Assembly (NCBI GenBank): GCA_035606695.1
Contig: DATNEW010000044.1
Span: 1 to 64,000, forward strand
DNA from: Gemmatimonadaceae bacterium
GTDB lineage: Bacteria; Gemmatimonadota; Gemmatimonadetes; Gemmatimonadales; Gemmatimonadaceae
Direction of reading: 5' to 3'
Length of the DNA stretch: 64,000 nt
Shown here: one piece after another, positions 8,610-62,307 of the stretch
Numbering within the stretch: the first letter of the stretch is position 1
How the letters are laid out: every line of letters begins with the position of its first letter
The notes under the pieces: model-generated
What the model was told of the DNA's origin: nothing
Databases searched by the model: none
What the model saw: the letters and a program-made list of their open reading frames with translations, nothing else
Translations under genes and position numbers: made by a program

Positions 8610-8783
8610 AACAACTGGAACAACTAGAACAACGACAAGGTCTGACAAGATCTGAGAAAAACAACAGAAGAGCCCAGCTGCCCAAGGAACGACCGGTGTC
8701 GCGGCAACCACCAAATTGTTTTTGTTTGCCGCAGTTTTCAGATGTTGTCAGATCTGGTCAGAACTTGTCGTAGTACCAGTTGT
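8610..8783. repeat. Dispersed inverted repeat, TCTGACAAGATCTG family, copy A
   Basis: Between convergent genes. The left arm (8611-8659) contains ACAACGACAAGGTCTGACAA and GATCTGAG. The right arm (8735-8782) is its imperfect reverse complement (TTTTCAGATGTTGTCAGATC, TGGTCAGAACTTGTCG). The loop is about 75 bases. Copies B, C and D are at 26901, 48127 and 58976. It could fold as a long RNA hairpin and end transcription from either side. Confidence 0.85.
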
Positions 8784-8796
8784 CGCCACCTCGAGC

Positions 8797-11370
8797 CTAG
8801 TCCGCCCGCAGAGCCTCGACCGGATCCACCCGCGCCGCCCGCACCGCCGGCCGGATGCACCCGATCAACGTGGTCGCGGCGCACAGAAACACCGCCAGCC
8901 CAAACGTGGCCGGATCGCTCGGGCTCACACCGACCAGCAACGAGCTCATCGCCCGCGCCGCCCAGTACGCGACGATCACACCCGGCAGAATCGCCAACAG
9001 CGAGAGCACGAGTCCCTCACGCAACACCATGCGCAGCACTTCGTCCGAGCGCGCGCCGAGCGCGACGCGAACGCCGATCTCGCGCGTGCGGCGAGCGACG
9101 GTGAACGACAGCAGGCCGTGAATGCCGATGCCCGACAGGAGCAGCGCGATCGCCGCGAGAATCATCAGCACGCGAAGCTGTGCGACGCGCGGCGCGGTTT
9201 CACCCGCGACGATGTCGGCCAGCATGCGCACGTCCGAGACGGGCTGCAGCGGATCGGCATCGTGCACGATGCGACGGATTTCACCCGCGATCGCGGTCGT
9301 GGCGCAACGGCATCGAATGGCGAGATTCTGCGGTACGTACCCGATCAGGTTGCCCTTCTCGACTTGCCTCGCCGGTATGTACATCTGCGGCTCACTCGTC
9401 TGCTCCAGACCGCGCACGCGCACGTCGGCGACGACACCCACGACCATGCGGTCGTGAAATGCCGAGAAGAAGTGCTTGCCGATCGGCGTTTCGTGCGGCC
9501 ACATCCGCTCCGCGAACGACTTGCTGACGACGGCGGCATATGGCTTGTCGGGCGTGTCGGTGGCGTCGACGTCGCGGCCTTGCAGGAGCGGAATGCCCAG
9601 CGTCGAGAAGAAGCCCGGCGTCACGAAACGGAGGCTCGCGGTCTTCGACGCGTCGCGAATCTGCTGCTCCTGCTCGTTGTACGACACGGCCCAGATGCCA
9701 CCCTTGCGCTCGATCGGCAGACCGCTGATGTACGCCGCGCTCGATACGCCGGGCAGCGCGCGTACGCGATCGAGCACGCTCGTGTAGAATCGCCAGCGGA
9801 CTTCGGGATCACCGTAGCGTCTAAACGACAGTGCGGTCGTCGCGGTCAGCACATTCTCCGTGCGGAAGCCGACGTCTTCGGATTGCAATCGCCAGATTGC
9901 GCGAACCAGTAGCCCGCTCGAGATCAGCAGCACGACCGACGCGCCGATCTCGATCATCACGAGCGCGCCGCGCATGCGCCGCCGCGCACCGCCGCCCGAC
10001 CGGCTATCCTCGCGCAACGCGCTGATCGCGTTAGCGCCCGCGCTTTGCCACGCGGGAATGATGCTGAACGCCAAACCGGTGACCAGCACCAGCAGACACG
10101 CGAACGCGCCGACGCGCAGATCGATCTTGGGTTGGCTCGCGATCGGCAACGTGAACGGCACGAGCGCCGTGAGTGCCGGCACCGCGACAATGGCCACGAG
10201 CACGCCGGCGACGCCGCCGATGAGCGCCAGCACGAAGCTCTCGGTGAGAATTTGCCGAATCAATCGTTCGCGCCCGGCGCCGAGCGCCGTGCGCACCGCC
10301 AGCTCACGCTCGCGCGACGCGGCGCGCGCCAACAACAGATTCGCGAGATTCGCGCACGCGAGCAGCAGGATGCACAGCGCCGCCCCGCACAAGGCGAGCA
10401 GCAGCGCGCGCGAGCGCGTCGACAGCTCGTCACGCAAGCGGATGACGTGCGCGCCCGTTCCCTGATTCGCCTTCGGAAACTGTTGCGCCAATCTCTCCGC
10501 AATCAGTCCCGTCTCGGCGCGCGCCTGCTCGAACGTCGCCCCCGGCTTGAGACGGCCGACGCCGGTGATGTAGTTGTCCGCGCGATCCGCAAGCTGGTCA
10601 GTCGAGAAGGCGAACGTCGTCCACATCGTCTCGTCGCGCGACGGAAAGTGAAAGTCCGCCGGCATGACGCCGATTACGACATGCGGCTGGTCGTCGAGCA
10701 CGATGCTGCGCCCGATCACCGCCGGGTCGCCGCCGAAGTGGGACTGCCACAGCGCGTAGCTCAACATCACCGACTGATTCGCCACGGTGTCGCTCGCCGT
10801 AAATACGCGGCCGATCACCGGCTTCACGCCGAGGACGTCGAACAAATCCCAGGTGACGAGGCCGCGGCCAAGGCGCATCGGCTCACCGCTGCCGGTGAGA
10901 TTCACCGGGATGTCGCTATACGCGCCCATCGATTCGAACGAACGCGCCTGCGCTTTCCAATCCTTATAATTGCCCGGGGACAGCTCCATGTAGCCGTAGC
11001 CCGGCGTGCTCTCGTACAGCTTGATCAACCGCTCTGCCTGCGGAAACGGCAGCGGCCGGATGAGCACGAAGTCCGCGACTGAAAACGCCGCGGTGTTCGC
11101 GCCGACGCCCAGGGCGACGACGAGCGCCGCCGTGATGGCGAAGCCAGGTGAGCGGCGCAGCACACGCGCCGTGTGCCGGAGATCGGCGCGCAGAATGTCC
11201 CAATGCGCGGCGGCGGCGTTCGGAACGACGTCGGTCAGCGCCGCGATCGCGACTCCTACTGCGCTCGCGTTCCGCATTCTCGCCTTGAATGCCGCCGCCA
11301 TCTCGCCCGCATACTCGGCGCGGAACGACCGTGGATAGAGATGCAGCAGGAATTTGTAGAAGCGCATCAC
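8797..11370 (-). CDS. ADOP-type duplicated ABC transporter permease (MacB/FtsX)
   Basis: An 857-residue permease with the N-terminal LHLYPRSFRAEYAGEM motif typical of the acidobacterial duplicated orphan permease family. Two MacB-type periplasmic domains plus FtsX cores follow: RSPGFAITAALVVALGVGAN near residue 72, a first three-helix block near 330-430, a second periplasmic domain, and a final block near 735-850 containing RTREIGVRVALGA. No ATPase gene accompanies it. Its gene starts with an ATG overlapping the padR stop by 4 bases, the usual PadR-ADOP arrangement. Function is export or mechanotransmission of an unknown substrate, regulated by the PadR protein. Confidence 0.9.
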   Translation of the reverse strand: MMRFYKFLLHLYPRSFRAEYAGEMAAAFKARMRNASAVGVAIAALTDVVPNAAAAHWDILRADLRHTARVLRRSPGFAITAALVVALGVGANTAAFSVADFVLIRPLPFPQAERLIKLYESTPGYGYMELSPGNYKDWKAQARSFESMGAYSDIPVNLTGSGEPMRLGRGLVTWDLFDVLGVKPVIGRVFTASDTVANQSVMLSYALWQSHFGGDPAVIGRSIVLDDQPHVVIGVMPADFHFPSRDETMWTTFAFSTDQLADRADNYITGVGRLKPGATFEQARAETGLIAERLAQQFPKANQGTGAHVIRLRDELSTRSRALLLALCGAALCILLLACANLANLLLARAASRERELAVRTALGAGRERLIRQILTESFVLALIGGVAGVLVAIVAVPALTALVPFTLPIASQPKIDLRVGAFACLLVLVTGLAFSIIPAWQSAGANAISALREDSRSGGGARRRMRGALVMIEIGASVVLLISSGLLVRAIWRLQSEDVGFRTENVLTATTALSFRRYGDPEVRWRFYTSVLDRVRALPGVSSAAYISGLPIERKGGIWAVSYNEQEQQIRDASKTASLRFVTPGFFSTLGIPLLQGRDVDATDTPDKPYAAVVSKSFAERMWPHETPIGKHFFSAFHDRMVVGVVADVRVRGLEQTSEPQMYIPARQVEKGNLIGYVPQNLAIRCRCATTAIAGEIRRIVHDADPLQPVSDVRMLADIVAGETAPRVAQLRVLMILAAIALLLSGIGIHGLLSFTVARRTREIGVRVALGARSDEVLRMVLREGLVLSLLAILPGVIVAYWAARAMSSLLVGVSPSDPATFGLAVFLCAATTLIGCIRPAVRAARVDPVEALRAD

Positions 11371-17645: not shown

Positions 17646-18079
17646 CCGCGCTCAGACCGACGCCGGTCACCGCGCCGGTTGAGGATTATCTAAAGGTCAT
17701 CTTCGAGCTGGGCGGCGACGGCGGCCTGGCATCGACGAACGACATCGCCGGCGCGCTCGGCTTCGCGCCGCCGTCGGTGAGCGGCATGATGCGGCGGCTC
17801 GCCGAGCAGCGGCTCATCACGTACGAGCGGTACCGCGGCGCGACGCTGACGCGCGCGGGCCGGCGTGCCGCGCTGCGCACGATTCGGCGGCATCGCGTGA
17901 TCGAGGCCTATCTCACGACGGCGCTCGGGTACCCGCAGGATCGCGTGCACGACGAAGCCGAGCGGATCGAGCACGCGGCGTCGGACGAGCTGATTGATTT
18001 GATGGCCGCGGCGATCGGCGAGCCCGAGATCGATCCGCACGGCGCGCCGATTCCGACGCGTGAGGCGTGCGAAGCGTAG
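17642..18079 (+). CDS. mntR: DtxR-family manganese-responsive repressor (MntR)
   Basis: A 145-residue protein starting at GTG overlapping the usp stop (GTGA). It has an N-terminal winged helix (VEDYLKVIFELG, then TNDIAGALGFAPPSVSGMMR) and a dimerisation/metal domain (VHDEAERIEHAASDELID). The SH3 domain of DtxR/IdeR is absent, and the residue equivalent to the DtxR metal-binding Cys is Glu, the Mn-selective MntR pattern. The residue matching B. subtilis MntR Glu11 appears to be Lys, so the second metal site may differ. It likely represses mntH and the divergent VOC unit through the two palindromes. Confidence 0.85.
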   Translation: MTALRPTPVTAPVEDYLKVIFELGGDGGLASTNDIAGALGFAPPSVSGMMRRLAEQRLITYERYRGATLTRAGRRAALRTIRRHRVIEAYLTTALGYPQDRVHDEAERIEHAASDELIDLMAAAIGEPEIDPHGAPIPTREACEA

Positions 18080-18086
18080 CGCGCCT

Positions 18087-18184
18087 GTCATCCCGAGCGA
18101 AGCGAGGGATCTAACTCGTGGTAAGAGGGCTGTCCCCGCTACCGGGACGTTAGATCCTTCGTCGCTTCGCTCCTTCGGGATGAC
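18087..18184. repeat. Dispersed hairpin repeat, TCATCC(C/T)GAGCGAAGCGA family, copy 1
   Basis: The left arm (18087-18115) begins GTCATCCCGAGCGAAGCGAG. The right arm (18149-18184) is its imperfect inverse, ending CTCCTTCGGGATGAC. The two are separated by about 33 bases. It lies between convergent genes and a second copy is at 37323. It may end transcription from both sides; similar intergenic hairpins are common in high-GC soil bacteria. Confidence 0.85.
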
Positions 18185-18186
18185 GG

Positions 18187-19794
18187 CTACGCGACGACGA
18201 CGCGGTCTCGCCCCTCTGACTTCGCGCGCGCCAACGCATCGTCCGCCACGCGATAGAGCGTCGTCCAGTCGGCGCCATTCTCCGGAAACTCGGCCACGCC
18301 CGCGCTGAACGACACCGTGAAGCCCTGACCGGCGCTCTCGAACCGCTCGCCGCGCAACTTCTCCAGCGCTTGACCCAGGCGGCGCGCGGCGGCATCGCCG
18401 GGCATCGAATACATGCCGACGACGAACTCCTCGCCGCCCCAGCGCGCGACGATATCTTCACCGCGGAAACACTTCGACAGAATCGTCGCGACGCGGCGCA
18501 GCACGAGATCGCCGACGAGATGACCCCAGCGATCGTTCACGGCCTTGAAGTGATCGAGATCGATCGCCGCCACCGAGATGGGCTGCCCCTGACGCTGCGC
18601 CAGGCGGAAGTAGCGCTCGAGCACCTCGATGCCGCGGCGGCGCGTGGCGACGCCCGTGAGGCTGTCGACGTCGGCGGCGAGACGCAGCATGCGCGTTCGC
18701 TCGAGACGATTGCGCACGCGCGCCACCAGCTCGGGGCCGAGCACGGGCTTGGCGACGAAGTCGTCGGCGCCCGCCTCGAACATGCGCATCACGGTCATCG
18801 GGTCGACCTGGCCGGTGAGAAACAACACCGGCACCGCGGCCCAGCGCGGGTCGTTGCGCAGCACGCGACAGAGCTCGATACCCGAGAGTCCCGGCATGTC
18901 TTCGTCGAGCATCACGAGGTCCGGCGCGTGCTCGACGAGCGCGTTGAGCGCGCGCAGCGGGTCGGTCACGGCGATCACGCGCGCGCGCAGCGGCTGCAGC
19001 ATTGCCTCGAGCAGCGCGAGCAGGTCTTCGTCGTCGTCCACCGCGACGATCGTCGACACATGCTGTTTCGCGACGACGAGTGAATCGCGCAGCAGGTCGA
19101 TGAGCTGCGAGGGACGCACGGGCTTCTGCAAAAACCCGCGTCCGCCAAGTCGCGCGGCTTCGACGCGATCCTGAAATTCGTCGCCGCTCGAGATCACGAT
19201 CACGGGCAGCGTCGGCCGCGCGACCTGCAACTCCTCGAGGAACGGCAGGCCCGCGCTGTCGACCGAGAGATCGAGCACCACCGCGTCGATGGGGCCGGCG
19301 GCGAGGGTCGCGCGTGCATCGGCGACGTTCTGCGCGGCGAGGACGTCGACACCAAGACTCCGCGCCTCGAGCGCCACGTGATCTCGGAAATCGAGATCGT
19401 CGGCGAGAATCAGCAAATGCGAACGAATCGGCAGCTCGTCGGTATTCTCGTCATCCGACATGGCCGACGGACGTTCGTCCTGGTCGATCTGGCGCCGCAG
19501 CTCCGCCGCGATGGTGGAAAGGCGCAACACGTCGCGCGACGCGATCGGACCCGATCCCGTCAGCAGCTGCTCGGCTTCTCGTGCGAGTACCGACGCGTGC
19601 TGAAAGCCGAACGTTCCCGCCACACCAGCCAGCTTGTGCGCTTCGCGCTCGGCGTTGCGGCGCGCGTCTTCGTCGAGCGGCGCCGAGAGCAGCGACTGCG
19701 CGGCGCGCTCGATGGCCGCGACACGATTCAACACCGTGTCGCGCGAACGCTCCCACAGCGCATCCATCGCGCTTTGTACGGCGACGTCGCTCAT
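18187..19794 (-). CDS. Hpt-REC-REC-GGDEF response regulator diguanylate cyclase
   Basis: A 535-residue protein; the ATG at 19794 overlaps the stop of the upstream receiver gene. Domains: Hpt helices at about 1-105 with the phosphorylatable His in REAHKLAGVAGTFG; REC1 at about 125-240 (VVLDLSVDSAG); REC2 at about 250-370 (VDDDEDLLALL, VMLDEDMPGLSG, conserved Lys in VAKPV); and GGDEF at about 375-535. The active site GGEEF and an inhibitory RxxD site (RGED) five residues before it are intact, so it should make cyclic di-GMP with product inhibition. It is the last gene of a kinase-receiver-cyclase operon. Confidence 0.9.
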   Translation of the reverse strand: MSDVAVQSAMDALWERSRDTVLNRVAAIERAAQSLLSAPLDEDARRNAEREAHKLAGVAGTFGFQHASVLAREAEQLLTGSGPIASRDVLRLSTIAAELRRQIDQDERPSAMSDDENTDELPIRSHLLILADDLDFRDHVALEARSLGVDVLAAQNVADARATLAAGPIDAVVLDLSVDSAGLPFLEELQVARPTLPVIVISSGDEFQDRVEAARLGGRGFLQKPVRPSQLIDLLRDSLVVAKQHVSTIVAVDDDEDLLALLEAMLQPLRARVIAVTDPLRALNALVEHAPDLVMLDEDMPGLSGIELCRVLRNDPRWAAVPVLFLTGQVDPMTVMRMFEAGADDFVAKPVLGPELVARVRNRLERTRMLRLAADVDSLTGVATRRRGIEVLERYFRLAQRQGQPISVAAIDLDHFKAVNDRWGHLVGDLVLRRVATILSKCFRGEDIVARWGGEEFVVGMYSMPGDAAARRLGQALEKLRGERFESAGQGFTVSFSAGVAEFPENGADWTTLYRVADDALARAKSEGRDRVVVA

Positions 19795-26900: not shown

Positions 26901-27040
26901 ATAAAACGACCACGTCTGACAAAATCTGATCAGATCCGGGTCTGTGATCTGAGAGGCGGGCGCCATGGCCAGCCTCGACGCACTGCAAGATTACAGATCT
27001 TGTCAGATGTGGCCAGACGTTGTCGTTGTTATCTTTTTTT
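26901..27040. repeat. Dispersed inverted repeat, TCTGACAAGATCTG family, copy B
   Basis: The left arm (26901-26939) has ACGACCACGTCTGACAAAAT. The right arm (26991-27032) has CAGATCTTGTCAGATGTGGC and CAGACGTTGTCGTTG. It is followed by seven T (27034-27040). It sits 27 bases after the AttH-like stop, so it probably ends that operon's transcript. Confidence 0.85.
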
Positions 27041-27054
27041 AATACTAGTTCTTG

Positions 27055-37115: not shown

Positions 37116-37429
37116 GGTGCCGTCCTTTACCGAGATCGTTCCTCGCGTCGGCGCTACGCACCTCCGCTTGGAATTCCGCCAGGACGGTTGAACCGTGGGC
37201 GGATTCGCGGCGGCAAGTTAGGCACGACGAGCGCGGCGGCACAACCCTGAATCGCGACGAATCTGCGCTAAGTGATACAAATCTCGTGGCGCATCGTGAG
37301 CCGGCGCATCGTGAGCCGCGGTGTCATCCTGAGCGAAGCGAAGGATCTCTCTCCTCGGCGACGCAGGGTCCTTCGCTCGCTGCGCTCGCTCAGGATGACA
37401 AGGACGGCGTTTGACGTTAGCCTCATGAC
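37116..37429. other. Intergenic region between mgtE and bioF
   Basis: A 314-base non-coding stretch between divergent genes. It contains a perfect 13-bp palindrome, ACGGTT-G-AACCGT (37184-37196), in the mgtE leader, a direct repeat GGCGCATCGTGAGCC near 37290-37318, and the hairpin repeat at 37323-37399. No BirA box, M-box or open reading frame of quality was seen. Confidence 0.7.
37323..37399. repeat. Dispersed hairpin repeat, TCATCC(C/T)GAGCGAAGCGA family, copy 2
   Basis: The left arm (37323-37347) begins GTCATCCTGAGCGAAGCGAA. The right arm (37366-37399) ends GCGCTCGCTCAGGATGAC. The loop is about 18 bases. The same family as at 18087, but here it lies 31 bases upstream of bioF rather than between convergent genes, so it would be in or next to the bio promoter region. 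Confidence 0.85.
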
Positions 37430-43242: not shown

Positions 43243-44498
43243 CCGCGACCGCGCGCGATACGACGGCGCACGTCGCGAGCGTCGCCGAGATTCGCTCACG
43301 CTTTCCCGCGCTCGAACGAATGCACAACGGGCATCCCGTCGCGTACTTCGACGGGCCGGGTGGAACACAGGTGCCGCGCGACGTCGTCGACGCGATGGCG
43401 GAGTATCTCTATCACCACAACGCGAACACGCACTGGAAGTATCCGACGAGCGAAGAGACCGACGCGCTGCTCGCCGAGGCGCGGCAGGCGATGGCCGACT
43501 TCGTGAACGGCCGCGCCGACGAGATCGCGTTTGGACAGAACATGACGACGCTCACGTTCCATCTCGCGCGCGCGTTCGGCAGCGAGTGGGGCAAGGGCGA
43601 CGAGATCGTCATCACGGAGATCGATCACCACGGCAACGTCGCGCCGTGGACGTGGCTCGAGAAGGAGCGCGGCGTCACGGTGCGCATGGTGCGCCTCAAT
43701 ACCGAGCGCGGGTGTCTCGATTGGAGCGATCTCGAGAAGGCGATCACGCCGCGCACCAAGCTGCTCGCGATCAACGCGGCATCGAACGCGCTCGGCACCA
43801 TCACCGACGTCGCGAAAGCCGGTGCGCTCGCGCATGTCGTCGGCGCCAAGGTCTTCGTCGATGCGGTGCATTACTCGCCGCACGTCCTGGTCGACGTCCA
43901 GCAACTCGGCTGCGATTTCCTCGGCTGCTCGGCATACAAGTTCTATGGGCCGCACATCGGCATGCTGTGGGGCAAGAAGGATTTGATCGAGGCGCTGGAC
44001 GCGCCGCGGTTGGATCCCGCGCCGCAGGATTCGCCCGAACGGCTGGAGACCGGAACGCAGAATCACGAAGGTATGGTCGGCGCGGCGGCGGCGGTCGATT
44101 TTCTGGCGTCGTTGGCCGGCGGCGAGATGAATCGGCGCGGCGCGCTGCGCCGCACGTTCGACACGCTGCACGCGCGCGGCGACTCGCTGCTCACGACGCT
44201 CTGGAATTCGCTCGCGGAGATCGACGGACTCACGTTGTACGGTCCGCCGCCGGGCACACCGCGCACGCCGACGCTGTCGTTCACGCTGCGCGCCTTCACG
44301 ACCGACGACGTGGCGATCGCGCTCGCCAAGCGCGGCGTGTTCGTGTCGAACGGCGATTTCTATGCGGCGACGATCGTCGATCGCCTGGGCCTGCGCCCGC
44401 ACGGGTTGGTGCGCGTCGGGTGCAGCTGCTACACGAGCGAGGATGAAGTCGGCCGGCTGATCGAGGGCCTGCGGGCGATCGCGGCCGGACGAACCTAG
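43239..44498 (+). CDS. Cysteine desulfurase-like aminotransferase class V (VC1184-type)
   Basis: A 419-residue PLP enzyme. Key elements: YFDGPGGTQVPRDVVDAM at the start, NMTTLTFHLARAFG, EIDHHGNVAPW with the stacking His, VDAVHYSPH with the Asp, and PLP-lysine in CSAYKFYGPHIG. The SufS/IscS catalytic Cys loop is not recognisable; the equivalent region reads LVRVGCSCYTSEDEV. Family assignment is to the cysteine-desulfurase-like, VC1184-type group whose reaction is unknown. Coupled to the dehydrogenase by a 4-base overlap. Confidence 0.82.
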   Translation: MTATARDTTAHVASVAEIRSRFPALERMHNGHPVAYFDGPGGTQVPRDVVDAMAEYLYHHNANTHWKYPTSEETDALLAEARQAMADFVNGRADEIAFGQNMTTLTFHLARAFGSEWGKGDEIVITEIDHHGNVAPWTWLEKERGVTVRMVRLNTERGCLDWSDLEKAITPRTKLLAINAASNALGTITDVAKAGALAHVVGAKVFVDAVHYSPHVLVDVQQLGCDFLGCSAYKFYGPHIGMLWGKKDLIEALDAPRLDPAPQDSPERLETGTQNHEGMVGAAAAVDFLASLAGGEMNRRGALRRTFDTLHARGDSLLTTLWNSLAEIDGLTLYGPPPGTPRTPTLSFTLRAFTTDDVAIALAKRGVFVSNGDFYAATIVDRLGLRPHGLVRVGCSCYTSEDEVGRLIEGLRAIAAGRT

Positions 44499-44516
44499 CG
44501 CGCGAACGATCGCCCG

Positions 44517-45605
44517 CTACTTCTTCCGCGACACCAGCGTTTTCTCCAGCGCCGGCATGTACACGTCGTAGATCGAGCCGGGGTTCCACATCACCCAGCC
44601 GTCGTAACCCGCGTCGTACACTGCCTGCTTTTCCGCCTTGAGCTGCTCCGGCCCGTATTCCGGCTTCCCGAGCGTGAAGGCCTGAAGCCAGGGACGGATG
44701 TGTTCAGGAGTTGTAATACCAATTCTCTTATCGCGCACCTTCGCCCGGTCGATCGCCCACTTGATCACCTTGTACGGCTCGGCGTTGGGATGCGGCACCC
44801 CCGGCACGTCGTCCGAGCGGTAGTGTGACGGGTAGACCATCGGCAGCACCACGTCGACGTTCGGCGAGATCTTCTCCCAGTCCTGACCAACTTCCAGCGG
44901 ACCGGCGACCGTCGTCACCAGACCAAAGATGTCCGCCGTCACGCGCACGCCCAGCTTGTTCATGCGGGCCTTGGCTTCCTTGAGGTACGCGGCGAGTGCG
45001 TCCGGCTTCGACACGCCGCCGTTGTCGGGAAATACCTGCGGCGGAAGGCTCGGATATGGTTCAGGAAAGCGGATGTAATCGAACTGAATCTCGCCGAAGC
45101 CCATCTTCGCCAGCTCTTCGGCGACGCCGATGTTGTACGCCCACAGCTCGCGATGATAGGGATTCACCCACGCGATGCCTTTCTTGTCGCGCCAGATCGA
45201 GTTGTCCTTGCGGCGAATCGTCCACTCCGGATGGACGCGCGCCGTCACCGAATCCTTGAACACGACGATGCGCGCGATCGCCAGGATGTGATGGGCCTTG
45301 AGCGTGTCGAGCAGCGCGTGCAGGTCGCGCACCTTGTTCGCGGTGCCGGCGTTCTTCGCGAACTCGGGATTCTCGGTCTTGTAGTTCAACCCGAACTCGT
45401 CCTTCATGTCGATGACGAGCGCGTTGATCTCGGTTTCATCCGCGGCGGCGAGCAGCTTCGCCATGCGCTTCTTGCTTTGCGAAGCCCAGCGATTCACGTA
45501 CAGCGCGCGCACGGTCGTCGGCGCGGACTGTTGTGCGACGAGCGGCGTGGTGACAACGAGAGCGATCGACGCGAGCAGCGAGAGAACGGCAAGTGAGCGG
45601 CGCAT
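44517..45605 (-). CDS. Secreted putative glycoside hydrolase (DUF4015-like TIM barrel)
   Basis: A 362-residue protein with a signal peptide (LAVLSLLASIALVVTTPLVA, cleavage before QQS). The barrel starts at VRALYVNRWASQSKKRM; further markers are ALVIDMKDEFGLNYKT, WVNPYHRELWAYN, GEIQFDYIRFPEP and VVLPMVYPSHY, typical of the GH13-related DUF4015 family. Polysaccharide hydrolysis is inferred. The start ATG 45605 follows a TAGAAT -10 box by 7 bases. Confidence 0.83.
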   Translation of the reverse strand: MRRSLAVLSLLASIALVVTTPLVAQQSAPTTVRALYVNRWASQSKKRMAKLLAAADETEINALVIDMKDEFGLNYKTENPEFAKNAGTANKVRDLHALLDTLKAHHILAIARIVVFKDSVTARVHPEWTIRRKDNSIWRDKKGIAWVNPYHRELWAYNIGVAEELAKMGFGEIQFDYIRFPEPYPSLPPQVFPDNGGVSKPDALAAYLKEAKARMNKLGVRVTADIFGLVTTVAGPLEVGQDWEKISPNVDVVLPMVYPSHYRSDDVPGVPHPNAEPYKVIKWAIDRAKVRDKRIGITTPEHIRPWLQAFTLGKPEYGPEQLKAEKQAVYDAGYDGWVMWNPGSIYDVYMPALEKTLVSRKK

Positions 45606-45612
45606 GCGCAGA

Positions 45613-45627
45613 ATTCTAGCGTATATT
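45613..45627. promoter_or_regulatory. Divergent -10 boxes of two near-leaderless genes
   Basis: Minus strand: TAGAAT (complement of 45613-45618), 7 bases before the ATG at 45605. Plus strand: TATATT (45622-45627), 8 bases before the ATG at 45636. The start codons are only 30 bases apart. No convincing -35 box is visible for either. Confidence 0.55.
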
Positions 45628-45635
45628 TGCCCGCA

Positions 45636-47159
45636 ATGAGGCTCGCTCCGCGTCGTTTGCTCGCCTGGGTTCCGCTCGCCGCGGCTGTCGCTGCCATCGC
45701 GTGCGCGCGGCCGCACGAGGTGTCACGCAATGCGGCTCCTCGCTCGGAGTTCCTCGTGAGCGGCGGCGATTCGACGTACTGGGTCACGACCGGGACAGAG
45801 GCGCGCGCGCACGTTCGCGGCGTTCCGCTCACACTCGCGCGCTACGAGGGCAAGTTCTTCGAGCTGTATGTCGCCGACGAGGATCTCTCGTACGACGACG
45901 CGCTCCTCTTGGGCGAGCGCGTTTTTCGCCGCGACCTCTCGACCGGCGACAGCTTGCTGGTGTTCGCCGACACGACGGTGCCGCGCATCGCGGAGGCGTA
46001 CGGACGTGCGCACCCCGACGAGCGGCCGCTGGATCCGAACGAGGACGGCGAGGCCGATCCCAGCACCAGCGCAACGGCCGAGTTCGATATCCTCGAGGTG
46101 CTTGGGCCCTACGTGTCGTTCGAGTACCACGTCGACATCTCGCTTCCTCACGCGCGGCCGTTCCACACGACACGTCGCGGCGTGCTCGACCTGCGCACCG
46201 CGAAGACAGTGTCCGTCGCCGACATCGCCGGCGCATCCGCGGCGAGCCATCTCGAATCACTCGGCCGCGATTCCTATCAAACCACGCGCGATTCAATCAT
46301 CGCCACGCGATCGACGTTGAGCGGCGAGGATCGCCGCGCGGCCGATGCACTGCTCCGCCTCTCGTTCGATCCCTCGAGCTTTACATTGACGTCGATGGAT
46401 GGCGCGCCGGCGGTGCAATTCGCCGTGCCCGGCTCGGGCCGAGGCGCCGAGGGCGACGTCGTGCAACTCGATCCACTGAAGTTGGATGCGGAGCCCGCGT
46501 GGTGGCGCGAAGTGCGCCGGTCGCTGCCGGTCACCGACGACGAAGGTACCGATCGGTGGACCACGCCGGCCTATCGCGTGATCGCCCGCTATGACACCTC
46601 GGGCGAAGTCGCGCATCTGTCGCTCGCCGACACGTCGCGGCGTGAATGGCCGATCGGACCGATGTCGGGACCCGTGCATCGCATCGACTGGCTCGATCGT
46701 CCAGCGATCGGCGACACCGATCGCCGCGCCCTCGTGCGCGCATTCAACGCAGCCGCCGCGTACGATGAAACTGCCCGTGTCGCATCCTTTTCCTCGCCCA
46801 TACGCCCATACGTCCATTCGCCCATACGCCCATCAAATGCGTCCTTCCAAAACCGTTCGCGAAAGCCAGCACGAAACGTCCGAGCTCATGATGCCGGAGC
46901 ATGCCAACAACATGGGGCACGTGTTCGGCGGTGTCATTCTCTCGATGATGGACAAGTGCGCCGCTATCGCCGCGTTTCGGCACAGTCGCGCGGCGGTCGT
47001 CACGGCGTCGATCGACCGCGTCGACTTCCGCGAGCCGATTCACTTGGGCGACCTCGTGGTGATGAAGGCGAGCGTCAACTTCGCCGGGCGGTCGTCGATG
47101 GAAGTCGGCGTGCGCGTGGAAGCGGAGGAATTGCTCACCGGAAGGCGGCGGCACACTAA
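45636..47159 (+). CDS. Lipoprotein of unknown function with abnormal read-through C-terminus
   Basis: From ATG 45636 a lipoprotein signal with lipobox AAIAC (about residue 23). A charged periplasmic protein follows, with segments FEYHVDISLPHARPFHTTRR and LRLSFDPSSFTLTSMDG, to about residue 385. There the frame enters five copies of an 8-bp repeat (46795-46834) and runs on for another 108 codons in the wrong frame of the thioesterase gene, giving an Arg-rich tail. The natural end is probably near residue 385. Family not recognised, though it resembles DUF3298/RsiV-like envelope proteins in layout. See findings. Confidence 0.65.
   Translation: MRLAPRRLLAWVPLAAAVAAIACARPHEVSRNAAPRSEFLVSGGDSTYWVTTGTEARAHVRGVPLTLARYEGKFFELYVADEDLSYDDALLLGERVFRRDLSTGDSLLVFADTTVPRIAEAYGRAHPDERPLDPNEDGEADPSTSATAEFDILEVLGPYVSFEYHVDISLPHARPFHTTRRGVLDLRTAKTVSVADIAGASAASHLESLGRDSYQTTRDSIIATRSTLSGEDRRAADALLRLSFDPSSFTLTSMDGAPAVQFAVPGSGRGAEGDVVQLDPLKLDAEPAWWREVRRSLPVTDDEGTDRWTTPAYRVIARYDTSGEVAHLSLADTSRREWPIGPMSGPVHRIDWLDRPAIGDTDRRALVRAFNAAAAYDETARVASFSSPIRPYVHSPIRPSNASFQNRSRKPARNVRAHDAGACQQHGARVRRCHSLDDGQVRRYRRVSAQSRGGRHGVDRPRRLPRADSLGRPRGDEGERQLRRAVVDGSRRARGSGGIAHRKAAAH
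46795..46834 (+). repeat. 8-bp tandem repeat array CGCCCATA, five units
   Basis: Units CGCCCATA, CGCCCATA, CGTCCATT, CGCCCATA, CGCCCATC directly precede the thioesterase ATG at 46837. The period is not a multiple of three, so unit gain or loss shifts the frame of the upstream lipoprotein gene. The same unit recurs at 51097-51120 and 51170-51209. Confidence 0.9.
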
Positions 47160-47355
47160 CTCGTGCTATCTGACGTTCGTTGCCGTGGATCGAAATGGTC
47201 GTCCCATCGAAGTACCGGAGTTGAGGCCGGAAACTGACGATGAGCTGCGCCGGAATGGTGCGGCGCAAGAGCGTCGCCGGCGGCGGCTCGAGGAACGCCA
47301 GGCGGAGGATCTCCGCAAGCAGCGCCGCTCGACCGAAAGCCCCCGAACCGAGTAG
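46837..47355 (+). CDS. Acyl-CoA thioesterase (hotdog fold, YciA/BACH type)
   Basis: A 172-residue hotdog enzyme. The catalytic region reads MMPEHANNMGHVFGGVILSM with D following, then VTASIDRVDFREPIHLGDLV and SYVEV-like RSSMEVGVRVEAE. It hydrolyses acyl-CoA to free acid and CoA. The ATG at 46837 follows the 8-bp repeat array with no Shine-Dalgarno. A C-terminal Arg/Glu-rich helix (RNGAAQERRRRRLEERQ) extends the family core. DUF2203 gene follows after 9 bases. Confidence 0.85.
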   Translation: MRPSKTVRESQHETSELMMPEHANNMGHVFGGVILSMMDKCAAIAAFRHSRAAVVTASIDRVDFREPIHLGDLVVMKASVNFAGRSSMEVGVRVEAEELLTGRRRHTNSCYLTFVAVDRNGRPIEVPELRPETDDELRRNGAAQERRRRRLEERQAEDLRKQRRSTESPRTE

Positions 47356-47364
47356 CTTTGTCGT

Positions 47365-47766
47365 ATGCAGTACTTCACCGTCGAGCAGGCCAACAAAACG
47401 CTTCCGTTGGTGCGGAAGATCGTCGAGGACGTCGTACAGCAGCACAAGCGCTGGCGTGAGACGATTCTCGAGCTCGACCTGGTGGCATCGACCGCGCGTG
47501 CCGACGAGCCGCGCGAACGCGCCGAAGAACTGGAACGTCAGGCGCTGGCGCTGGCGCGCGAGCTGGACGGTTATCAGCGCGAGCTCGAGGACCTTGGCAT
47601 TCAGCTGAAGGACCGCCGGCTTGGGCTCGTGGACTATCCCAGCGAGATGGGCGGGCGCACGGTGCTGCTGTGTTGGCGTTTAGGTGAGCCCGAGGTCCAG
47701 TTCTGGCACGAAGTCGACGCGGGGTACGCGGGCAGGCAGCCGCTGTCGCCCGAGCTGGTCGGCTAA
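47365..47766 (+). CDS. DUF2203 family protein
   Basis: A 133-residue protein. An N-terminal YFTVEQANKTLPLVRKIVED and coiled-coil middle lead to the family block LGLVDYPSEMGGRTVLLCWR and LGEPEVQFWHEVDAGYAGRQ, typical of DUF2203. Function unknown. It starts 9 bases after the thioesterase and is likely cotranscribed. Confidence 0.9.
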   Translation: MQYFTVEQANKTLPLVRKIVEDVVQQHKRWRETILELDLVASTARADEPRERAEELERQALALARELDGYQRELEDLGIQLKDRRLGLVDYPSEMGGRTVLLCWRLGEPEVQFWHEVDAGYAGRQPLSPELVG

Positions 47767-47825
47767 CTCCTCCGTAGAAGACGTTCAAGACCGTACACGA
47801 CCTCACACGGCACGTAAAAACAGAC

Positions 47826-48125
47826 ATGGCGAAGAACAGAGTCTGGCACTCGCCGGACGGTATCCAGTGGGTCGTCGACGTCGATCTTCCGGGATCGAGC
47901 AACGCGATGGTGATCTTCCGTCACCCCGGCGGATCGACGGGTCGCAAGGACAAGTACGCGTGGTACATCAGCAATGGGCCCGAGGCGCGCAGCGTGACGT
48001 CGCGCTTGAGCAAGTCGAAGGTGCTCGATGCATTGACTGATGAGGATATCGCGCGGCTGTTTCGGCGGGCGATGAATATTTCGCGACCGGATCCGTTGCT
48101 TCCGTCGCAGGCGTCCGACGGCTAG
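47826..48125 (+). CDS. Hypothetical 99-residue protein
   Basis: A short beta-rich protein (RVWHSPDGIQWVVDVDLPGS, MVIFRHPGGSTGRKDKYAWY) with a helical C-terminus. No family recognised. It starts 59 bases after the DUF2203 gene and ends against the inverted repeat of copy C. Amino-acid use is normal and it carries several Trp and Tyr, supporting coding. Confidence 0.65.
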   Translation: MAKNRVWHSPDGIQWVVDVDLPGSSNAMVIFRHPGGSTGRKDKYAWYISNGPEARSVTSRLSKSKVLDALTDEDIARLFRRAMNISRPDPLLPSQASDG

Positions 48126-48126
48126 C

Positions 48127-48242
48127 ACTACGGCCAGGTCCGACAAAATCTGACAAGATCCGTTGCGCCGCGCGCGGCACTCGCAGGGTGTCGCGGAGCA
48201 AACAGATCTTGTCAGATCTTGTTAGATCCGGTCGTTTTTAGT
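48127..48242. repeat. Dispersed inverted repeat, TCTGACAAGATCTG family, copy C
   Basis: The left arm has CCAGGTCCGACAAAATCTGA with CAAGATCCGTT, the right arm AACAGATCTTGTCAGATCTT with AGATCCGGTCGTTTTTAG. The loop is about 35 bases. It lies exactly between two convergent genes (stops at 48125 and 48246), consistent with a bidirectional terminator. Confidence 0.87.
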
Positions 48243-48245
48243 TTG

Positions 48246-49184
48246 TTAATTCGCCTGCGAAGCCAGATCTCGAAACGGAACCTCCACCTCGAGACCATCC
48301 TTCCCGACGACGGTCTCCGAAAAGACCCCGCACGCCTCTCGATACAAATCAGCGGCATCCCGGGAATAGCGCGCCGAGAAGTGCGTGAGGACGAGCCTCC
48401 GAACGCCGGCGTCGCGCGCGACTTGTGCCGCCTCGCGCGCCGTCGAATGACCCGTCTCCACCGCACGCTCGGCTTCTTCATCACCGAACGTTGCTTCATG
48501 AATGAGTAAGTCGGCGCCGCGTGCCGCGTCGATGGTTGCCTGGCATGGACGCGTATCGCCGGTAATTACGATAGTGCGGCCGGGGCGCTTGTCCCCAACC
48601 AGCACGCCCGGACTTATCACGCGGCCGTCGTCGAGTGTCACACTCTCGCCGCGGTGGATCTTGCCCCACAGCGGCCCCTCGGGAATTCCGAGCTCGCGCG
48701 CCATGTCCGGATTGAATCGGCCTTTGCGCTCCTCTTCAATGAGTGCATAGCCCAGCGACAGCGCGCCGCGGTGATCGACCGGAAACGCGGCGATCGCGTA
48801 GCCGTTGCGCGCGATCCGCGCATCCGGGTCGACTTCATTGATCGCGACGTTGAACGCCGGCCGCTCGAACCCGAATTCCAGCGCGCGTTTGAGCACCCGC
48901 GCCGAGCCGCGCGGTCCCCACAACCGCAGTGGCTCGACGCGGCCCTGGAGCGCCATCGTGCGCATCAAGCCGATGACACCCAGGAGGTGGTCCGCGTGCA
49001 TGTGTGTGAAGAAGATGTCCTCGAGCGCGAACGAGATGCCGTAGCGCATCATCTGCCGCTGCGTGCCTTCGCCGCAATCGAACATCAGCGTCTCGCCTTC
49101 GCGATGCACGGCGAGCGACGACACGTTGCGCTCGACGGTCGGGCGCGACGCGGATGTTCCAAGCAAGCGAACACTCAATGACAT
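48246..49184 (-). CDS. rnz: Ribonuclease Z (tRNA 3' processing)
   Basis: A 312-residue metallo-beta-lactamase-fold endonuclease. Zinc motif FTHMHADHLLG at about residues 60-70, MFDCGEGTQRQMM before it, KRPGRTIVITGDTRP with the metal-binding Asp, LLIHEATFGDE, and VLTHFSARY with the last His. Length fits bacterial RNase Z. It trims tRNA 3' trailers, relevant because the two tRNA genes in the window lack encoded CCA. Confidence 0.92.
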   Translation of the reverse strand: MSLSVRLLGTSASRPTVERNVSSLAVHREGETLMFDCGEGTQRQMMRYGISFALEDIFFTHMHADHLLGVIGLMRTMALQGRVEPLRLWGPRGSARVLKRALEFGFERPAFNVAINEVDPDARIARNGYAIAAFPVDHRGALSLGYALIEEERKGRFNPDMARELGIPEGPLWGKIHRGESVTLDDGRVISPGVLVGDKRPGRTIVITGDTRPCQATIDAARGADLLIHEATFGDEEAERAVETGHSTAREAAQVARDAGVRRLVLTHFSARYSRDAADLYREACGVFSETVVGKDGLEVEVPFRDLASQAN

Positions 49185-49309
49185 AACAGCGGAATTCCGA
49201 GCGAAGGTGCGAGCGGAGCGAAGCGCCGCCGCGAGGAACCATCAGCAGAACACGAGCGCTCGCAGAATATAGCAGTCTCTTCGGTCTGCTTCTTGCGGCG
49301 GCCCACTGC

Positions 49310-50239
49310 ATGCCGAACACGAAGCATCGCAGTAGCAAGAGTGGCAGCAAAAGTCGAAAGAACGCGAAGCGCGGCAATCGTCGCCCGAAGCCGCCGTTCA
49401 AGGCACAGCATCAGCCCCGTCCTGGGTTGGAGTCGCAGATCGATCCGAGCCCGCGTTTCGAGGCGCCGGACTACAAGGGAGCGGGGAAGCTCGATGGACG
49501 CGCCGCGCTGATCACCGGCGGCGACTCGGGCATCGGACGCGCCGTGGCCGTGCTGTTCGCGCGCGAAGGTGCCGACGTCGCGATCGTGTATCTGCCCGAA
49601 GAAGAGAGCGACGCCCAAGTGACCGAGAGCGCGGTCGTCGCGGAAGGACGCCGCTGTCTCCTCATTCCGGGCGACGTGCGTGATTCCCAATTCTGTGAAG
49701 ATGCCGTGCAGGCGACGGTCGACGCCTTCGGGTTCATCGACATTCTCGTGAACAACGCGGCGTATCAGCATCATCAGGAGACGATCGAGGACCTGACCGA
49801 CGAGCAGATCGATCGCACGTTCCGCACGAACATCTTCGGATACATGTACATGGCGCGCGCCGCGGTGCGGCACATGAAGCGTGGCAGCGCGATCGTGAAT
49901 ACGGGATCGATCACGGGCCTGCAGGGCAGCGGAGGCCTCCTCGACTACTCGGCGACCAAGGGCGCCATCCACGCGTTTACAAAATCGTTGGCGCAGAATC
50001 TCGTGGCCCAGGGCATTCGTGTGAACGCGGTGGCGCCGGGGCCCATCTGGACGCCGCTCAATGTGGCGGACAAGCCGGCAAAGAAAGCGGCCAGGCACGG
50101 AGAAGCGGTGCCAATGAAGCGGCCCGGCCAGCCCGAGGAGGTGGCTCCGGCGTACGTGTTCTTCGCGTCGAACGTGGATTCGAGCTACATCACCGGCGAG
50201 GTACTGACCTTGCTAGGTGGAGAGACGACTGCGGCGTAG
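49310..50239 (+). CDS. Short-chain dehydrogenase/reductase with basic N-terminal extension
   Basis: A 309-residue SDR. Cofactor motif ALITGGDSGIGRAV, NNAAYQHHQETIEDLT, catalytic Ser in NTGSITGLQGSGG, YSATKGAIHAFTKSLAQNL (Tyr and Lys), and VAPGPIWTPL. Related to YghA/YhdF-type SDRs often annotated as glucose 1-dehydrogenase-like; natural substrate unknown. Residues 1-30 are a Lys/Arg/Ser tail (RSSKSGSKSRKNAKRGNRR) typical of this subgroup. The start ATG is 9 bases after a run with no Shine-Dalgarno. Confidence 0.88.
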   Translation: MPNTKHRSSKSGSKSRKNAKRGNRRPKPPFKAQHQPRPGLESQIDPSPRFEAPDYKGAGKLDGRAALITGGDSGIGRAVAVLFAREGADVAIVYLPEEESDAQVTESAVVAEGRRCLLIPGDVRDSQFCEDAVQATVDAFGFIDILVNNAAYQHHQETIEDLTDEQIDRTFRTNIFGYMYMARAAVRHMKRGSAIVNTGSITGLQGSGGLLDYSATKGAIHAFTKSLAQNLVAQGIRVNAVAPGPIWTPLNVADKPAKKAARHGEAVPMKRPGQPEEVAPAYVFFASNVDSSYITGEVLTLLGGETTAA

Positions 50240-50464
50240 CGCTGGGAGTTGAGCGCTGGACGCTGGGCGTGGACTGTAACAACTACGAAGTTGCCCATCG
50301 TCCAACACCCATCGTCCATCGCACGACGGCAAGCAGTTTGCATTTGATTTGCTCGCAATGGCCCGGGGGGGCCTGGAGCACACGGCGTCGGACCCGAACG
50401 CACGTGCGGGACTGTACGTCCACGATCGGTTAGATCGGTTTAGCCAATTTTTAGGAGGAGCAGG

Positions 50465-51022
50465 ATGCCGAATAGACCGGGCAACGACGATCGCATCACG
50501 GCGGGCGGGATCGGATCGAACGGTGGAAGCGCGAACAGCTCGCAGAACGGCAACTCGCGCTCGCGCAGCAATCGCGGTTTCGCGTCGATGGATCGCGAAA
50601 AACAGCGGGAGATCGCCAGCAAGGGCGGTCGCGCCGCTCACGCCAAAGGCACGGCGCACGAATTCGACTCGGGCGAAGCGCGCGAGGCGGGACGCAAGGG
50701 CGGCATGGCGGTGAGCCGCAACCGCGAACACATGGCCGCGATCGGCCGTCGCGGCGGTGAAGCGCGCGGACAGGCGCGGACTCGCACCACGTCGCAGGTG
50801 AATTCCGGCGGCGCGGGCAGCAACGCGGAGGGCGGATTCCAGAACTCGCGTGCGGGATCGAACGGGGCGGATCGCCAGGTCGCGATCGACACCAACAGCG
50901 ACGGCGTCACGGGCAACACCCAGGGCACCCGCGGTGGAAACAGCTCACTCGGCGGCGAGCGCCGGACGAACGTCGGCGGCAATGAAGCCAGCAGCGGCAG
51001 TGAGACGTTCGGAAATCACTAA
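50465..51022 (+). CDS. KGG-repeat hydrophilic stress protein (GsiB/YciG-like)
   Basis: A 185-residue, highly hydrophilic protein. Three KGG-type repeats lie at about residues 40-105: QREIASKGGRAAHAKG, AREAGRKGGMAVSRNR and MAAIGRRGGEARGQA. The rest is Gly/Ser/Asn-rich. KGG repeat proteins are associated with general stress and desiccation. It has the strongest ribosome-binding site in the window (AGGAGGAG, 50453-50460) and a strong terminator after the stop, suggesting high expression as a single-gene unit. Confidence 0.82.
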   Translation: MPNRPGNDDRITAGGIGSNGGSANSSQNGNSRSRSNRGFASMDREKQREIASKGGRAAHAKGTAHEFDSGEAREAGRKGGMAVSRNREHMAAIGRRGGEARGQARTRTTSQVNSGGAGSNAEGGFQNSRAGSNGADRQVAIDTNSDGVTGNTQGTRGGNSSLGGERRTNVGGNEASSGSETFGNH

Positions 51023-51063
51023 TCTCGGCGTTCGTTAGTCGGGCAGCGCACAACCAGCAGAAG

Positions 51064-51094
51064 GGGAGCCGCGGCGTGCCGCGGGCTCCCTTTT
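51064..51094 (+). terminator. Intrinsic terminator of the KGG gene
   Basis: GGGAGCC and GCGGC pair with GCCGC and GGCTCCC around a 2-base loop with a one-base bulge, followed by TTTT. It lies 42 bases after the stop. Confidence 0.9.
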
Positions 51095-51096
51095 GT

Positions 51097-51209
51097 TATG
51101 GGCGTATGGGCGTATGGGCGGCAACGACATAAAGGGCGATGAAATCTCTCCGTCGCCCTTCGCAGTTTTCGCCCATACGGCCATGCGCCTATACGCCTAT
51201 ACGCCCGCC
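51097..51209. repeat. Inverted CGCCCATA arrays flanking a small hairpin
   Basis: The left arm is three units of TATGGGCG (51097-51120). The right arm is five units related to CGCCCATA (51170-51209). Between them a second hairpin, AAAGGGCGATG with CGTCGCCCTT. The arms are complementary. The right arm carries the stop codon (51197-51199) of the dehydratase gene on the minus strand. Confidence 0.88.
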
Positions 51210-52162
51210 TTTAGCAATTTCTCATGCCTCCCCGCATCGATATTGCCGCCGCTGATCACCACAACCGCCGGCCCCTCGATCGCCTTCACGTACCCGCCCC
51301 GCACCGCCGCCGCCGCGCACGCACCCGCGCCCTCGACCCGCTGCTCGTGCGTCCGCCACAGCCACGCGATCGTGTCGCCGATCTCCGCCTCGCTCACCGT
51401 CGCCATGTCGTCGAGCCCGTGCCGGCCGATGTCGAACGCCTCGTCGTCGATCTGACCCGCCAGCCCATCGGCGAGTGTCGGCAGATTGTCGATCTCGATC
51501 AAGCGTCCCGCGGCGAGTGACTTCGCCATCGCCGCCGTGTTCTCGCTCTGCGCGCCGACGATCCGCACGCTCGGCGACACGGCCCGCACGAGACTCGCGC
51601 ATCCGCCGAGCAGCCCGCCGCCGCCGACGTTGAGAACGAGCGTCGCGAGGTCGGGCAGCTCGCCCAGGATCTCGAGCGCCACGGTGCCCTGACCAGCAAG
51701 CAGCATTTCGCCGAGGCAGGGATTGATGAACGTCGCCCCATGCTCGCGCGCGAATGCCTTGGCCGCGTCCATCGCCGCGTCGTAATGCGGCTGCGTCGTA
51801 TCGAGCGTGGCGCCGAGTGCGGCGATGCCGTCGCGTTTCACTTGCGGGGCGTTGGTCGGCACGAAGATCGTGGCCGCCGTGCCAAAGTGCTTGGCCGCGT
51901 ACGCGACCCCCAAGCCGTGATTGCCCGCTGATGATGCGACGACTCCGCGCTTCCGCTGCTCGGGCGTGAGCGTCGCGAGCACGTTGAGCGCGCCGCGCAG
52001 CTTGAACGATCCGGTGGTCTGCTGATTCTCGAGCTTCAGGTAGACGTCGGCGCCGGCGATCGCACTCAGTGGTGCGCTTCGAATGAGCGCCGTTCGCGTG
52101 ATGAACGGCCGGATGCGATCGGCGGCGGCGATGACGTCGGCGGGGCGGAGGTCGGCGAACAT
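51197..52162 (-). CDS. Threonine/serine dehydratase, PLP fold type II
   Basis: A 321-residue enzyme, the length of catabolic or serine-racemase-like forms without an ACT domain. PLP-lysine in QTTGSFKLRGA near 54, SSAGNHGLGVAYAA, and the phosphate-binding loop NVGGGGLLGGCASL. Converts threonine or serine to the oxoacid, or racemises serine. The final Gly-Val and the stop lie in the 8-bp repeat, so the C-terminus was reshaped by it. Confidence 0.87.
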   Translation of the reverse strand: MFADLRPADVIAAADRIRPFITRTALIRSAPLSAIAGADVYLKLENQQTTGSFKLRGALNVLATLTPEQRKRGVVASSAGNHGLGVAYAAKHFGTAATIFVPTNAPQVKRDGIAALGATLDTTQPHYDAAMDAAKAFAREHGATFINPCLGEMLLAGQGTVALEILGELPDLATLVLNVGGGGLLGGCASLVRAVSPSVRIVGAQSENTAAMAKSLAAGRLIEIDNLPTLADGLAGQIDDEAFDIGRHGLDDMATVSEAEIGDTIAWLWRTHEQRVEGAGACAAAAVRGGYVKAIEGPAVVVISGGNIDAGRHEKLLKAGV

Positions 52163-52221
52163 GAGTCGAAACTAAAGTGATTCGGGAACCGTTGTTACCT
52201 TCAGACGGGTTGGCAGTCTTC

Positions 52222-52250
52222 TTGACGCAAGCCACGCCGCGCTCTAGATT
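52222..52250 (+). promoter_or_regulatory. Strong sigma70-type promoter upstream of tRNA-Ala
   Basis: TTGACG (52222-52227), a 17-base spacer and TAGATT (52245-52250). The predicted start is near 52257, 10 bases before the terminator-like hairpin at 52267 and 53 bases before the tRNA. Confidence 0.7.
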
Positions 52251-52266
52251 TAGCTTGTCGGGAGCG

Positions 52267-52288
52267 GCCCCGCTTTGCGGGGCTTTTT
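52267..52288 (+). terminator. Terminator-like hairpin between promoter and tRNA-Ala
   Basis: GCCCCGC-TTT-GCGGGGC followed by TTTTT, a textbook intrinsic terminator in form. Its position between the promoter at 52222 and the tRNA is unexpected; it could instead act as a processing or attenuation signal in the leader. Confidence 0.8.
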
Positions 52289-52309
52289 CCATGACGGGAC
52301 CCAGAGAAA

Positions 52310-52382
52310 GGGGCTGTAGCTCAGCTGGGAGAGCGCTGCAATCGCACTGCAGAGGTCACCGGTTCGATCCCGGTCAGCTCCA
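52310..52382 (+). tRNA. tRNA-Ala (anticodon CGC)
   Basis: A 73-base cloverleaf: acceptor GGGGCTG with CAGCTCC (one G-U pair), D arm GCTC/GAGC, anticodon stem CTGCA/TGCAG with loop ATCGCAC (CGC at 34-36), T arm ACCGG-TTCGATC-CCGGT, discriminator A. The CCA end is not encoded. It decodes GCG, a common codon in this genome. Confidence 0.95.
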
Positions 52383-52556
52383 TTAGACGCATAGAAATTC
52401 GTGGAATGTCTCCGACTTCCACCGGCATGCTTCTCGCCTTTTTGAAGTTTTGCCCGCCGCCGCTCGGTAGGACGCAGAGTTCCAATGACGGTGAGCGAGG
52501 CAGCTTCGGCGAGGGCCTCTGCCTCAAGCGACAGCACGCCGCAACAAAGCCGATCA

Positions 52557-52587
52557 CGCCGCGAGCTTCACGCTTCGCGGCGTTTTT
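52557..52587 (+). terminator. Intrinsic terminator after the tRNA-Ala transcript
   Basis: CGCCGCGAGC pairs with GCTTCGCGGCG (one bulge) around a short loop, followed by TTTTT. It lies 174 bases after the tRNA and 34 bases before the stop of the convergent lipoprotein gene. No gene was found in the 174 bases between. Confidence 0.83.
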
Positions 52588-52620
52588 GCTGTTCGGTAGT
52601 GCGACGTGCCGAGCCTGCGA

Positions 52621-53964: not shown

Positions 53965-54134
53965 ATGATGATGTGTGATTGGGTTACCGACTGAGTGGCG
54001 CGGTGTGCCGGGCGGTGCCGGGGATTGATCGAGGGTGCTAATTGAAATATATTCAAAGGGTTGCGGGAAACCGTGACGCGTTGCGCATTTCGGGTGGTTT
54101 GGGATGTTCGGTGGGTCGGAATGCGCGGAAAAAC

Positions 54135-54207
54135 TGCCCCTTGGTGTAACTGGCAACACGCCTGACTCTGGATCAGGAGAGTCCTGGTTCGATCCCAGGA
54201 GGGGCAA
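54135..54207 (+). tRNA. tRNA-Gln (anticodon CTG)
   Basis: A 73-base cloverleaf: acceptor TGCCCCT with AGGGGCA (perfect), D arm GTGT/ACAC, anticodon stem CCTGA/TCAGG with loop CTCTGGA (CTG at 34-36), T arm CCTGG-TTCGATC-CCAGG, discriminator A. CCA is not encoded. It marks the left border of the low-GC island. Confidence 0.95.
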
Positions 54208-54212
54208 TTGAT

Positions 54213-54246
54213 AGCCAGACAATCACTTAGCTGATTGTCTGGCTTT
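54213..54246 (+). terminator. Hairpin terminator of tRNA-Gln
   Basis: A perfect 13-bp stem, AGCCAGACAATCA with TGATTGTCTGGCT, with loop CTTAGC and a short T run. It begins 5 bases after the tRNA. Confidence 0.88.
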
Positions 54247-54442
54247 ATCATTTCTGAGGATCTTGCGCGGCTGGGAAGCGCTTGGGAAGCGTTGACGATT
54301 GATTCGTCTCGAGTTGTCAGTCGTCGAAGCGACGCCGCGATAACGAGTGCTATCTCGTTGATGCCCGCCGACTTGCTAGTCGAGTTCGCCCCCTCGATGT
54401 TTTCGCATCAAGGTCGTACTGTCAAAGCGGCGGCCGAGCCAA

Positions 54443-57904: not shown

Positions 57905-57910
57905 TCCGCG

Positions 57911-58852: not shown

Positions 58853-58975
58853 AAGGCTATGTCGCGGGTCTACATCGGTTGCCCGCACTGCGGGACGGAC
58901 TTCTACATCTATACGCCAACCGAGTCGCCAAGCGATGCGCCGACTTTGCCGCTGTCCGTGAATTCAAGCTGGGAC

Positions 58976-59070
58976 ATGACAACGCTGGCCAGATCTTGTC
59001 AGACGTGGTCAGATTTTATCGTGATTCACATGTGACCACGACAGAATCTGACCACGTCCGACAACATCCC
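58976..59070. repeat. Dispersed inverted repeat, TCTGACAAGATCTG family, copy D
   Basis: The left arm (58995-59024) reads CTTGTCAGACGTGGTCAGAT then TTTATCGTGAT. The right arm (59035-59065) is its complement with a few mismatches. The loop is about 10 bases, shorter than in the other copies. It sits between the DUF262 pseudogene and the DinB gene, 22 bases before the DinB start. The rest of 58853-58975 holds no recognisable gene. Confidence 0.82.
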
Positions 59071-59091
59071 ACTCTTGCCACTCTCTCCGCG

Positions 59092-59631: not shown

Positions 59632-59676
59632 CGCGCGTCACGGGTGACGGACGCCCGCGGAAATCGTCTCGAAGGC

Positions 59677-62299: not shown

Positions 62300-62307
62300 C
62301 CCTCATT

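Follow-up and report, generated by a model that had tools for sequence, protein, structure and literature searches.

Palindromic sequences repeated between bacterial genes are known from several systems. An A-tract on one side of a hairpin together with a T-tract on the other is a known mark of bidirectional transcription terminators (PMC1852404), and the uptake signals of Neisseria and Pasteurellaceae can likewise sit in terminators as inverted pairs (PMC1852404). Published REP dimers share both the doublet build and the placement of the repeats considered here (PMC3733652). Our subject is a family of intergenic inverted repeats in the genome of a Gemmatimonadaceae bacterium, whose copies we consider, with a probability of roughly 70%, to be long bidirectional intrinsic (Rho-independent) transcription terminators. 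The family touches on two open questions, namely the separation of convergent genes in bacteria and the spread of extragenic palindromes without a recognisable transposase.

The repeat family and its four copies in the window

A first-pass annotation had described four copies of a dispersed inverted repeat in the window (the whole stretch of DNA that was analysed, 64,000 nucleotides). All four are present where it placed them, and other copies do exist, as a search of the host genome (5.9 Mb, 50 contigs) with an arm sequence profile (E up to 1) retrieved 97 arms falling into 51 clusters, four of which are the window copies. Paired arms make up 44 of the 51 clusters and are inverted in all 44, with CGAC on the outside in 38 and on the inside in six. 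With up to 3 mismatches allowed, the 20-mer TCTTGTCAGATCTNGTCAGA has 65 matches genome-wide against 1 for its reversed control, and the exact 12-mer TCTGACMAGATC has 59 against 0 for its control; the abundance of the family is far beyond chance. Each arm is about 37 nt long and the stem about 33 bp, and the aligned arms give the consensus nACnACGAC-MRSR-TCTGAC-MAGA-TCTGAC-MAGA-TCTG, in which three 10-bp units follow one another in tandem (an example unit is TCTGACAAGA, at 8641..8650 on the + strand). TGA, which recurs every 10 nt in the arm array, falls in all three reading frames and might supply in-frame stop codons.

Copy 1 (8620..8783) has arms at approximately 8628-8660 (+) and 8739-8774 (-) around a long loop, and lies between the stop at 8609 of a NUDIX gene (+) and an FtsX/MacB-like permease gene at 8797-11370 (-), the identity of the latter having been read off its translation without a family search. 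Copy 2 (26903..27030; arms 26903-26938 (+) and 26994-27030 (-)) is followed by ATCTTTTTTT and stands between gene ends at 26873 (+) and 27055 (-). Copy 3 (48127..48238; arms 48127-48162 (+) and 48203-48238 (-)) is followed by GTTTTTAGTTT and stands between gene ends at 48125 (+) and 48246 (-), the second belonging to a metallo-beta-lactamase/tRNase Z-like gene. Copies 1, 2, and 3 are thus all in convergent settings, which makes three in the window instead of the two that had been counted. Copy 4 (58990..59068) is reversed, in that its arms, at 58990-59025 (-) and 59035-59068 (+) with a 9-nt gap between them, read CAGA..GTCG first and CGAC..TCTG second. Since a DinB-like gene starts at 59092 (+) on its right and a weaker gene call at 58136-58852 (+) lies on its left, its setting is probably co-directional. 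The weaker call holds a GmrSD-like restriction-endonuclease N-terminal domain (58136-58849).

The annotation had also held that the copies share two 14-mer cores. Both are exact in copy 1 (TCTGACAAGATCTG on the left, CAGATGTTGTCAGA on the right), while copies 2 and 3 have only the right core exactly, with a near-match on the left, and copy 4 has the reverse arrangement. The distal part that it described, AACAACGAC / GTCGTTGTT, is real and general across the family.

Genomic placement and terminator-like anatomy

Placement was assessed against gene calls from a fifth-order gene caller trained on the host genome, which errs near weak genes. By these calls no copy lies inside a gene, and 21 of the 50 classifiable copies occupy convergent gaps, compared with 31 of 229 background gaps (13.5%; Fisher p 2.6e-5). 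Copies in convergent gaps stand a median of 25 nt away from the stop codon, and in co-directional gaps 18 of 19 copies are closer to the stop codon of the upstream gene (p 7.6e-5). The family is thus exclusively intergenic and strongly favours convergent junctions and the 3' ends of genes, much as had been proposed from the window alone.

The flanks of the stem are polar. Among 32 copies in the usual orientation, an A-run of at least 5 stands just left of the stem in 11 and a T-run of at least 5 just right of it in 7, with 0 in the opposite sense, and such runs are found in background intergenic DNA at a rate of about 1% each; the T-tract at 27031..27041 (+), 3' of the right arm of copy 2, is an example. 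The mean predicted fold is -52.5 kcal/mol on one strand and -52.7 on the other, compared with -28.1 for shuffled sequence, and predicted folds of window copies have z-scores of -5.7, -7.8, and -6.9.

Upon transcription from either side, the two arms would pair into a long hairpin, and because A-rich DNA precedes the left arm and T-rich DNA follows the right one, a U-rich tract would come downstream of the stem on either strand. RNA polymerase arriving from either gene would stop at the copy, and convergent transcription units would in this way be kept from running together. As regards the earlier suggestion that the repeats act as terminators, the A/T tracts, the stable predicted fold, and the 3'-end placement all provide terminator-like anatomy, from which we infer termination itself and a benefit of insulation. 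Against the terminator reading stand the many copies without a clear T-run, the six reversed-arm copies, whose A/T-rich ends are turned towards the loop, and the approximately 10 copies called in divergent gaps. A simple terminator scan of positions 44001-64000 missed the copies there; its loop limit of 8 leaves out most of the family. Rfam returned only two tRNAs at gathering score in the window, and the four copies had no match at E 1.

The arms could also be arrays of protein-binding sites, in which case a DNA- or RNA-binding protein would read GACNANATCN once per 10 bp, or about one helical turn, and the hairpin would be secondary. This would fit the pattern of conservation, in which GAC and ATC are near-invariant in every unit and peaks at GAC / A / ATC recur every 10 bp, with the positions between them variable and often mispaired between the arms, and it would also fit the presence of both arm orders. 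Helical phasing is nevertheless not general, because periods of 7, 8, 9, and 13 occur among other families of the host and its relatives, while the A/T tracts and the 3'-end placement correspond to what a terminator needs, and no candidate protein was found. We therefore regard binding-site arrays as quite unlikely, and favour bidirectional termination as the reading of the copies.

Relatives, loops, and the spread of the family

Arms from the same copy are 75.3% identical and arms from different copies 72.7% (a difference of about 3.6 sd), such that the complementarity of the arms comes mainly from their common consensus, without the compensatory change of ordinary terminator sets, a point that also counts against the terminator reading. 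Their build from tandem repeats of a single 10-bp word, conserved across loci, points to spread by copying of related sequence or to an additional sequence-specific constraint: the copies may descend from one another, with arms kept and loops changed, or a protein may read the word.

Loop length does differ across the family, as was first seen in the window; it extends from 0, where the arms overlap, up to 84 nt, and many values group at 40-56 nt. Most copies have loops unrelated to those of the others, a pattern not expected if a single master element had been copied recently. Related loops are found in C13:53472, C19:99578, and C44:48127, and again in C23:164036 with C40:34229. Two loops, in the copies C9:94856-95011 and C4:5154-5280, enclose complete strong hairpins (z-scores of -6.6 and -6.0) and give these copies a nested look; one of the two enclosed hairpins resembles a hairpin standing alone elsewhere in the host genome.

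The word is absent from all five congeners. Among the 394 genomes of the class it recurs only in G019, from another genus of the same family. There, two units of the word lie inside a hairpin that is longer, has another core, and was not reported by the arm profile with stricter filters; this likeness in sequence may reflect either homology or convergence. A search of approximately 85,000 species genomes with an exact 21-mer pattern gave 12 matches, apparently due to chance or self-palindromic and without family copies, and there were 0 matches in viral contigs and none in plasmids. A literature search by string and by topic found no paper on the repeat in the collection searched.

Comparison with the congeners at individual junctions reveals gain or loss of hairpins. 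G003 and G001 are without approximately 175-180 bp at the copy 2 junction, and the copy is missing from the orthologous gap. Copy 3 is likewise absent in G002 and G003, where the convergent stops nearly touch; in G004 and G005 the gap at this junction is longer and filled with unrelated sequence. The junction at C9:94856 holds a family copy in the host, a GTCATCCTGAGCGAAGCGAAGG-type palindrome in G002, a palindrome of GAGAGTG-like 7-mers in G005, and a short G+C-rich hairpin in G003; the sequences of G004 and G001 at this junction were read, and no clear hairpin could be assigned in them. At this single site, then, the species differ in the sequence of the hairpin that they carry. With some 50 one-word copies in the host and none in the congeners, and with three congeners each having a different hairpin at one junction, gain, loss, and replacement can be traced gene by gene.

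Junctions with and without a copy would also be expected if the repeats were MITEs, that is, non-autonomous transposons whose arms are terminal inverted repeats, and the few loops related to one another agree with such an origin. The unrelated state of most loops speaks against it, as do the flanks of the copies, where no target-site duplication was seen and no offset gave matching flanks beyond scatter, though old insertions could have lost this signal. In the host genome we found no arm-flanked element of larger size that carries a transposase, nor any widely spaced arm pair as a parent transposon would have, and there are no gene insertions of the kind expected from a free mobile element. 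Membership among MITEs, which had been raised in the first-pass annotation, appears unlikely.

The same annotation had raised REP-like elements. REPs and REPINs are inverted pairs of short palindromic units mobilised in trans by a RAYT transposase, and the inverted doublets, variable spacers, intergenic position, gene 3' ends, and both pair orientations seen here are all features in common with them. The host genome, however, is 99% complete and has no Y1_Tnp gene (PF01797), a lone arm folds weakly (-6 to -8 kcal/mol, compared with -4 for shuffled sequence), and neither a GTAG nor a CGTC tag is evident on reading the arm consensus. The sole Y1_Tnp gene of G019 adjoins a TnpB-like reading frame, and no repeat copy is close to it. 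An association with RAYT was rejected on the Y1_Tnp results from the two genomes, and we consider REP membership very improbable. Overall, a transposase route for the spread of the copies is not supported.

A survey of palindromes of any sequence (score of at least 14, in sampled blocks; five blocks for each congener, hence small numbers) found them in 18 of 46 convergent, 16 of 199 co-directional, and 2 of 76 divergent gaps of the host, and almost none in shuffled sequence. The corresponding counts in unselected blocks of G019 were 7 of 7, 7 of 26, and 0 of 9. Several palindromes have tandem-repeat arms, with periods of 10, 8, 7, and 13 in the host, 7 in G005, and 9 in G019, which makes the 10-bp family one among several that are built in this way. 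We would tentatively suggest, while holding it to be doubtful, that species of the genus mark convergent junctions with interchangeable lineage-specific tandem-word hairpins (of 10, 8, 7 or 13 bp), replaced at the same junction by transposase-free copying directed at gene 3' ends or at hairpins already in place.

Other repeats were noted along the way. In the window, a palindrome at 51097-51206 between convergent genes has arms of three TATGGGCG words (period 8), and similar stretches occur many times in the host genome. At 46794-46833 is a related stretch of 40 bp, with many host copies and some in G001. A TGTCATCCCGAGCGAAGCGAGGGATCT.. palindrome lies between convergent genes at 18075-18196 and also has many host copies, with a similar one at 37322-37400 and relatives of its word at gene ends in G002. 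A dispersed G+C-rich repeat (GAGCGAAGGTGCGAGCGGAGCGAAGCG) with several copies genome-wide is found in a divergent gap at 49187-49243. Palindromes occupy nearly all sampled convergent gaps of G019 (L169-L184, L235-L238) and belong to several families with outer words of 8-10 bp, several of which share a GGCTCCGCGTGG-like inner core. The hairpin arms at L217:7244-7409 and in L189 of G005 consist of many GAGAGTG-like 7-mers.

Comparison with known repeat and terminator systems

A repeated word of 9-11 nt, occurring in inverted pairs and used in terminators, could in principle be a DNA uptake signal sequence. Uptake signals generally number at least 1,000 per genome and also occur singly. All 59 exact TCTGACMAGATC sites of the host genome lie inside the 51 family copies, with none elsewhere; uptake signalling was rejected given this confinement of the word, and we judge its probability to be close to nil. 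The terminators formed by the uptake signals of Neisseria and Pasteurellaceae resemble the present copies in that a word of 9-11 nt forms inverted pairs, whereas the word here is found in hairpins only, in about 100 arms rather than at least 1,000 sites, and as several tandem units per arm.

REP, BIME, and REPIN elements of the GTAG and CGTC families (PMC3733652) are similarly intergenic, mainly downstream of genes, species-specific, and arranged as inverted dimers. In contrast to them, the present family is without RAYT and without a GTAG or CGTC tag, its unit does not form a strong hairpin, and its arms are tandem 10-bp arrays. Catalogued bacterial stem-loop families (PMC2267715), as far as their abstract-level description goes, are also repeated intergenic stem-loops of origin not established, and tandem-word arms do not form part of that description.

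Closest to our reading of the copies as bidirectional terminators are those of the TransTermHP type (PMC1852404), which likewise lie between convergent genes and have a hairpin flanked by an A-tract on one side and a T-tract on the other. The present family differs from these in the single conserved tandem word of its stems, common to 51 loci, in a stem length of about 33 bp, in loops that are long and variable, and in its minority of reversed arms. It can thus be described as a variant of intergenic palindromic repeats with predicted terminator anatomy, found in the host and, so far, by its word in one other genome.
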